43,969 nt of DNA, taken from the NCBI RefSeq assembly GCF_000337095.1, contig NZ_AOIV01000023.1, positions 57,535-101,503 of the forward strand, in the 5' to 3' direction. Positions 31,825-31,965 of the stretch are shown piece by piece. The notes beneath the pieces were generated by a model. The model was not told the origin of the DNA and did not search any database. It saw nothing but the letters and a program-made list of their open reading frames with translations. The number at the start of each line of letters is the position of its first letter. Position 1 is the first letter of the stretch. This DNA is from Halogeometricum pallidum JCM 14848 (lineage in GTDB: Archaea > Halobacteriota > Halobacteria > Halobacteriales > Haloferacaceae). The position numbers and the translations under genes are program-made.

Positions 31825-31832
31825 AAGGAGAG
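31825..31832. repeat. Target-site duplication, left copy
   Basis: AAGGAGAG directly abuts the left end of the MITE and is repeated exactly at 31958-31965, abutting its right end. Eight bases is the duplication length of IS6-family elements. Confidence 0.85.
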
Positions 31833-31957
31833 GGCTCTGTTGAAACCCTCTTCACGTCTTGCGATTTTGTATAGAAGCTAGTTTCAGTCGCATTGGTCGT
31901 GAGTGACGAGTAGAGCACCTGTCCTGAATGTCAGCAGCGAAGGGTTTCAACAAGGCC
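31833..31957. mobile_element. 125-bp IS6-like MITE with terminal inverted repeats
   Basis: The left end GGCTCTGTTGAAACCCT (31833-31849) and the right end AGGGTTTCAACAAGGCC (31941-31957) are inverted repeats matching at 15 of 17 positions. The GGCTCTGTTGAAA tip resembles IS6-family ends (GG-TCTGTTGCAAA type). Both ends are flanked by the perfect 8-bp duplication AAGGAGAG. The interior (about 90 bp, AT-richer than the flanks) holds no gene. This is a non-autonomous insertion that needs a transposase in trans. It lies between the HEAT-protein stop and the aminotransferase stop and disrupts neither. Confidence 0.88.
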
Positions 31958-31965
31958 AAGGAGAG
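31958..31965. repeat. Target-site duplication, right copy
   Basis: AAGGAGAG is identical to 31825-31832. Perfect identity suggests that the insertion is fairly recent. Confidence 0.85.

Follow-up and report, generated by a model that had tools for sequence, protein, structure and literature searches.

A 125-bp MITE of a clade-wide haloarchaeal family with IS5-type ends

A 125-bp element at positions 31833–31957 of the window, the 43,969-nucleotide stretch of Halogeometricum pallidum JCM 14848 DNA analysed here, is, judged by its sequence, a real, transposed MITE. It belongs to a haloarchaeal family that is clade-wide and varies very little in length, and its ends are IS5-type, not IS6-type. 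With a probability of roughly 0.8, we consider it a non-autonomous member of this family that is moved in trans by an IS5-family transposase (NF033579 type). The kind of element is a known one; what is corrected is the transposase family, IS5 instead of IS6, and the result is a MITE found across the clade whose proposed mobiliser can be tested. The open literature that was searched contains no description of these ends or of the MITE family; a 2007 review of archaeal insertion sequences, which lay outside that search, may contain one.

The element and its copies in haloarchaea

The element is flanked by exact direct repeats, AAGGAGAG, at 31825–31832 and 31958–31965, and is bounded by TIRs of 17 nt each, GGCTCTGTTGAAACCCT on the left (31833–31849, plus strand) and GGCCTTGTTGAAACCCT on the right (31941–31957, minus strand). 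The length of 125 bp, the perfect 8-bp target duplication and the 17-bp inverted repeats with 15 matching positions, all reported in the initial annotation, were confirmed. The mismatches between the TIRs (GGCTCTG on the left, GGCCTTG on the right) are common to other family members and are therefore a subfamily feature rather than decay. Inward of the TIRs lie two conserved subterminal blocks on the plus strand, CGTCTTGCGATTT at 31855–31867, which is specific to the MITE family, and AATGTCA at 31927–31933; the middle between them (31868–31926) has diverged in sequence across the family at almost constant length.

The element lies between convergent genes, one for a HEAT-repeat protein (29336–31822, plus strand), whose stop codon ends 2 bp ahead of the duplication, and one for a class-V aminotransferase (31982–33238, minus strand). 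Neither the list of open reading frames nor the sequence gives a gene within the 125 bp, in agreement with the earlier view of a MITE dependent on a transposase elsewhere. A scan for sigma-70 promoters and bacterial terminators, of little meaning for an archaeon, found none. Elsewhere in the window, two open reading frames (2086–4947 and 20093–22954) are of equal length (953 aa) and encode unrelated proteins.

Could the repeats have arisen by chance, or could they be an intergenic repeat that is static and was never inserted? This view can point to the missing empty site: all four congeners examined lack the element, and the intergenic region cannot be aligned, hence no empty site is readable. 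In two of the congeners (G003:C5 and G004:C1), about 0.5–2.4 kb of different sequence occupies the gap between the HEAT-repeat and aminotransferase genes, which in the window contains the MITE alone. Against chance stands a scan of the window for stretches of 60–400 bp with exact 8-bp flanking repeats and inverted ends matching at 13/17 bp or more, which returned two stretches, only the present element reaching 15/17; 100 random first-order Markov windows gave nine structures at the lower threshold and none at 15/17 or above. The left-end 17-mer, with up to three mismatches, occurs in the window only at the two ends of the element (mean 0.04 in shuffles). Moreover, the exact 8-bp flanks of dozens of relatives differ from site to site. 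The family data refute a chance or static repeat, to which we assign practically no probability, and uphold transposition, as had been claimed at the outset; the intact duplications suggest a fairly recent insertion, also in line with the earlier proposal. The element thus combines short size, absence of a transposase gene, TIRs, a target-site duplication and multiple copies at different sites, as a MITE does.

The search for other copies that had been recommended found, in its own genome, one copy that is intact and one that has decayed to a remnant, and many copies in other genera. BLAST matched 15 of the 60 related genomes, at 28 listed places, 11 of which score below 40 bits, several of these covering barely more than one end; 28 plasmid records also match, nine of them over at least 80% of the query. 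An exact two-end pattern with 80–110 bases between the ends (110–140 bp in total) found 30 stretches in 84,980 species genomes, 28 of them in Halobacteria, and none in viral contigs. The haloarchaeal stretches measure 125 bp (23) or 124 bp (5), and their flanks agree at 8/8 positions in 18, 7/8 in three and 5/8 or fewer in seven. The other two, in a Thermoguttaceae bin and a Planctomycetota bin, measure 113 and 130 bp, have flanks agreeing at 1–2/8, and look like chance matches. Of 391 genomes of the class, 47 have the left-end pattern (up to three mismatches) and none has the reversed control pattern; among the better genomes, the left-end pattern is found in 24 of 86 genera. The duplications of 61 MITE copies are perfect in 30, 7/8 in six and 6/8 or less in 25. 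One genome has eight left ends within about 180 kb (G139:C1:1774984–1956344). The decayed remnant of the own genome (C36:142038; L054 from 1039) adjoins an IS6-type element, the mismatched flanks of which suggest a rearrangement.

Ends in common with IS5-type elements

Of the family's 60 genomes searched, at least 45 have the left-end pattern when one mismatch is allowed, and none has the control pattern. From the matches listed, 23 forward–reverse pairs less than 4 kb apart were chosen by eye, MITE-length pairs being left out, and three pairs were added, two from the own genome and one from G055, giving 26 loci (L061–L086). By tblastn, eight of these hold an IS5-type transposase 80–100% identical to that of L075, and neither the IS5 nor the IS6 transposases queried left a trace in the remaining 18. 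Six of the eight (L071, L073, L075, L080, L081, L083) have ends matching the MITE left end at 16–17/17 and duplications of 8/8; the remaining two have duplications of 2/8 and 3/8. The three transposases that were scanned (L071, L075, L083) exceed the cut-off of NCBIfam NF033579, which places them in the IS5 family. The left TIR of the MITE is the same as both ends of a 1304-bp IS5-type element (L075/L188), which is present in two records, each with a different perfect duplication. The right TIR, in turn, matches at 17/17 both ends of L096, an IS5-type element of 2262 bp with a 7/8 duplication and a transposase frame free of stops, 70% identical to the L075 transposase. Insertion sites also agree: among perfect duplications, the form RN6Y (purine first, pyrimidine last) is found in 22 of 30 MITE copies and in 11 of 16 IS5-type elements and cassettes.

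In several IS5-type elements (L073, L075, L188, L193, L194), one end and the transposase are kept while the passenger genes at the other side differ. Among the passengers are a PAS-domain protein (two species) and a periplasmic binding protein accompanied by a second open reading frame. Among plasmid copies, the first ~880 bases are conserved and the remainder differs, two copies carrying a PAS-domain protein and 8/8 duplications.

The initial annotation had described the ends as IS6-like, and a MITE derived from IS6 and moved by its transposase could appeal to the 8-bp duplication that IS6 also makes, to GG tips and a cTGTt motif (PMC7986276), and to four IS6-type transposase matches in the own genome. 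The assignment fails at the ends. The IS6 elements (NF033587) of the own genome, a part of the haloarchaeal IS6 clades, end in GGCACTGTCTAG, which agrees with the MITE end at 8–9/17, against 16–17/17 for the IS5-type elements. This comparison rules out parentage by the IS6 elements it covered and leaves IS6 derivation in general very improbable. The MITE family is probably moved by IS5-type rather than IS6-type transposases.

Since ends and target bias are shared with IS5-type elements, we infer an IS5 transposase as mobiliser; it would act by cut and paste. In this model, the GGCYYTGTTGAAAYCCT ends would be bound by a DDE transposase provided in trans (NF033579 type), which would excise the 125-bp element and insert it at an AT-rich RN6Y site opened by a cut staggered by 8 bp. 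The full-length insertion sequence with the same 17-bp ends for which a search had been proposed was indeed found, as IS5-type elements in other genomes, though none is present in the own genome, where the nearest transposase is an IS5 protein of 39% identity at C21, in an element whose ends are related but worn and which lacks a clear duplication. Two congeners (G003, G004) have intact IS5-type transposases, 89–91% identical; in another genome, G031, where a MITE looks fresh and has an 8/8 duplication, the L075 transposase gave no hit at E 1e-20. With no close IS5 transposase in the own genome or in G031, a visiting or since lost IS5 element would be needed, as PMC3119063 states for a Haloquadratum MITE. 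Both the 8-bp duplication and the ends are those of IS5-type elements, and no autonomous element with the left internal block of the MITE was found; derivation of the interior by simple deletion from a known insertion sequence was rejected.

Cassettes with the same ends

One of the 18 transposase-free loci, L069, holds a 125-bp MITE at one side, so that 17 cassette loci remain (L061–L068, L070, L072, L074, L076, L079, L082, L084, L085, L086), with duplications of 8/8 in six, 7/8 in four and 6/8 or less in seven. Most of them enclose ordinary genes, including those for a Cys/Met-metabolism enzyme, a GNAT acetyltransferase, a BrkB-like membrane protein, a luciferase-like monooxygenase, an alpha/beta hydrolase, a universal stress protein and a BAT/HTH_10 regulator. 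Two lie in the own genome, L084 at C6:17249–19290 and L085 at C36:101242–103347. The latter is found end to end, at 93.6% identity, in a plasmid of Halobacterium sp. DL1, with an identical left flank and no right duplication, and hence gives no proof of an independent jump. A possible reading of these loci is gene-cassette traffic among haloarchaea; the presence of MITE ends on transposase-free cassettes of cellular genes suggests an under-described route of gene spread in this group.

Constant length, and comparison with known systems

Among 64 copies found by their left end, a sample that includes loci picked by the 110–140 bp pattern and by BLAST, the first right end falls at 125 bp in 45, at 124 in 14, at 126 in one and at 121 in one, and is missing in three, so that 60 of 64 measure 124–126 bp. 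The subset found by the left end only (30 loci, 31 matches) gives 125 bp in 21, 124 in eight and one copy without a right end; the remaining match is a spurious internal one at 62 in a copy whose right end lies at 124. The mean identity of 60 distinct copies is 68%. By parsimony, the MITE middle has undergone 538 substitutions and 21 indels, compared with 898 and 113 in intergenic DNA of the window and two congeners, a control resting on a crude gene caller and BLAST alignments; indels per substitution are thus about threefold fewer in the MITE (Fisher p 1.4e-7). Parsimony undercounts substitutions, which biases against this difference, and alignment of equal-length sequences may mask compensating indels, which biases in its favour. 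A length held this nearly constant suggests selection on the distance between the two subterminal blocks, for instance because both ends have to be synapsed on the same face of a segment that is below the persistence length of DNA.

Alternatively, the length may be kept by a function of the interior beyond transposition, for host or element (a protein-binding array or an RNA, for example), which would in part account for the spread of the family. The constant length at 68% mean identity and the scarcity of indels speak for such a function, as do same-ended cassettes of 307 to 2106 bp with 8/8 duplications, according to which the machinery does not need 125 bp. However, conserved cis-acting blocks for transposition would fix the spacing likewise, and convincing covariation is absent: RNAalifold pairs the element ends only, and Rfam gave no relevant match, its sole hit being sub-threshold and outside the element. 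Two internal alifold hairpins were tried as a candidate RNA and dropped, as their pair types did not exceed those of shuffles and sliding by +3 gave an equally high score. We regard a function of the interior as rather unlikely.

A broader proposal, built on selected spacing, is offered tentatively and is of somewhat doubtful standing. The MITE may be a length-locked unit in which the subterminal blocks sit at a fixed distance and the whole 125 bp, about 12 helical turns, forms one cis-acting structure for the IS5 transposase. It might then belong to an IS5-driven network in Halobacteria, the ends of which would also move cassettes without a transposase, encoding metabolic enzymes, regulators and stress proteins, between genomes and plasmids, in effect comparable to a gene-cassette system. 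In any event, the family offers a natural data set on the limits of DNA length and phasing in very short transposons.

Among known systems, IS5-family insertion sequences with an NF033579-type transposase resemble the MITE in their ends (16–17/17), 8-bp duplication and RN6Y bias, and differ in their size of 1.2–3.3 kb, a 273-aa transposase, passenger genes and an interior that has nothing in common with it. Mobile insertion cassettes are transposase-free units bounded by IS ends. The cassettes found here are comparable to these, unlike the 125-bp element, which carries no gene; the term occurs in PMC3129680. Two IS6-family MITEs of 227 and 336 bp (PMC7986276) are alike in short size and 8-bp duplications, but the IS6 ends of the own genome differ from those of the present MITE. 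The HqIRS MITEs of Haloquadratum walsbyi, as presented in PMC3119063, are short, with transposon TIRs, a target duplication and an interior unrelated to the transposon, all of which holds for the present MITE; they were mobile although in some cases no functional transposase copy was found. Whereas that paper describes them inside one species, the present family extends over many genera at 124–126 bp.
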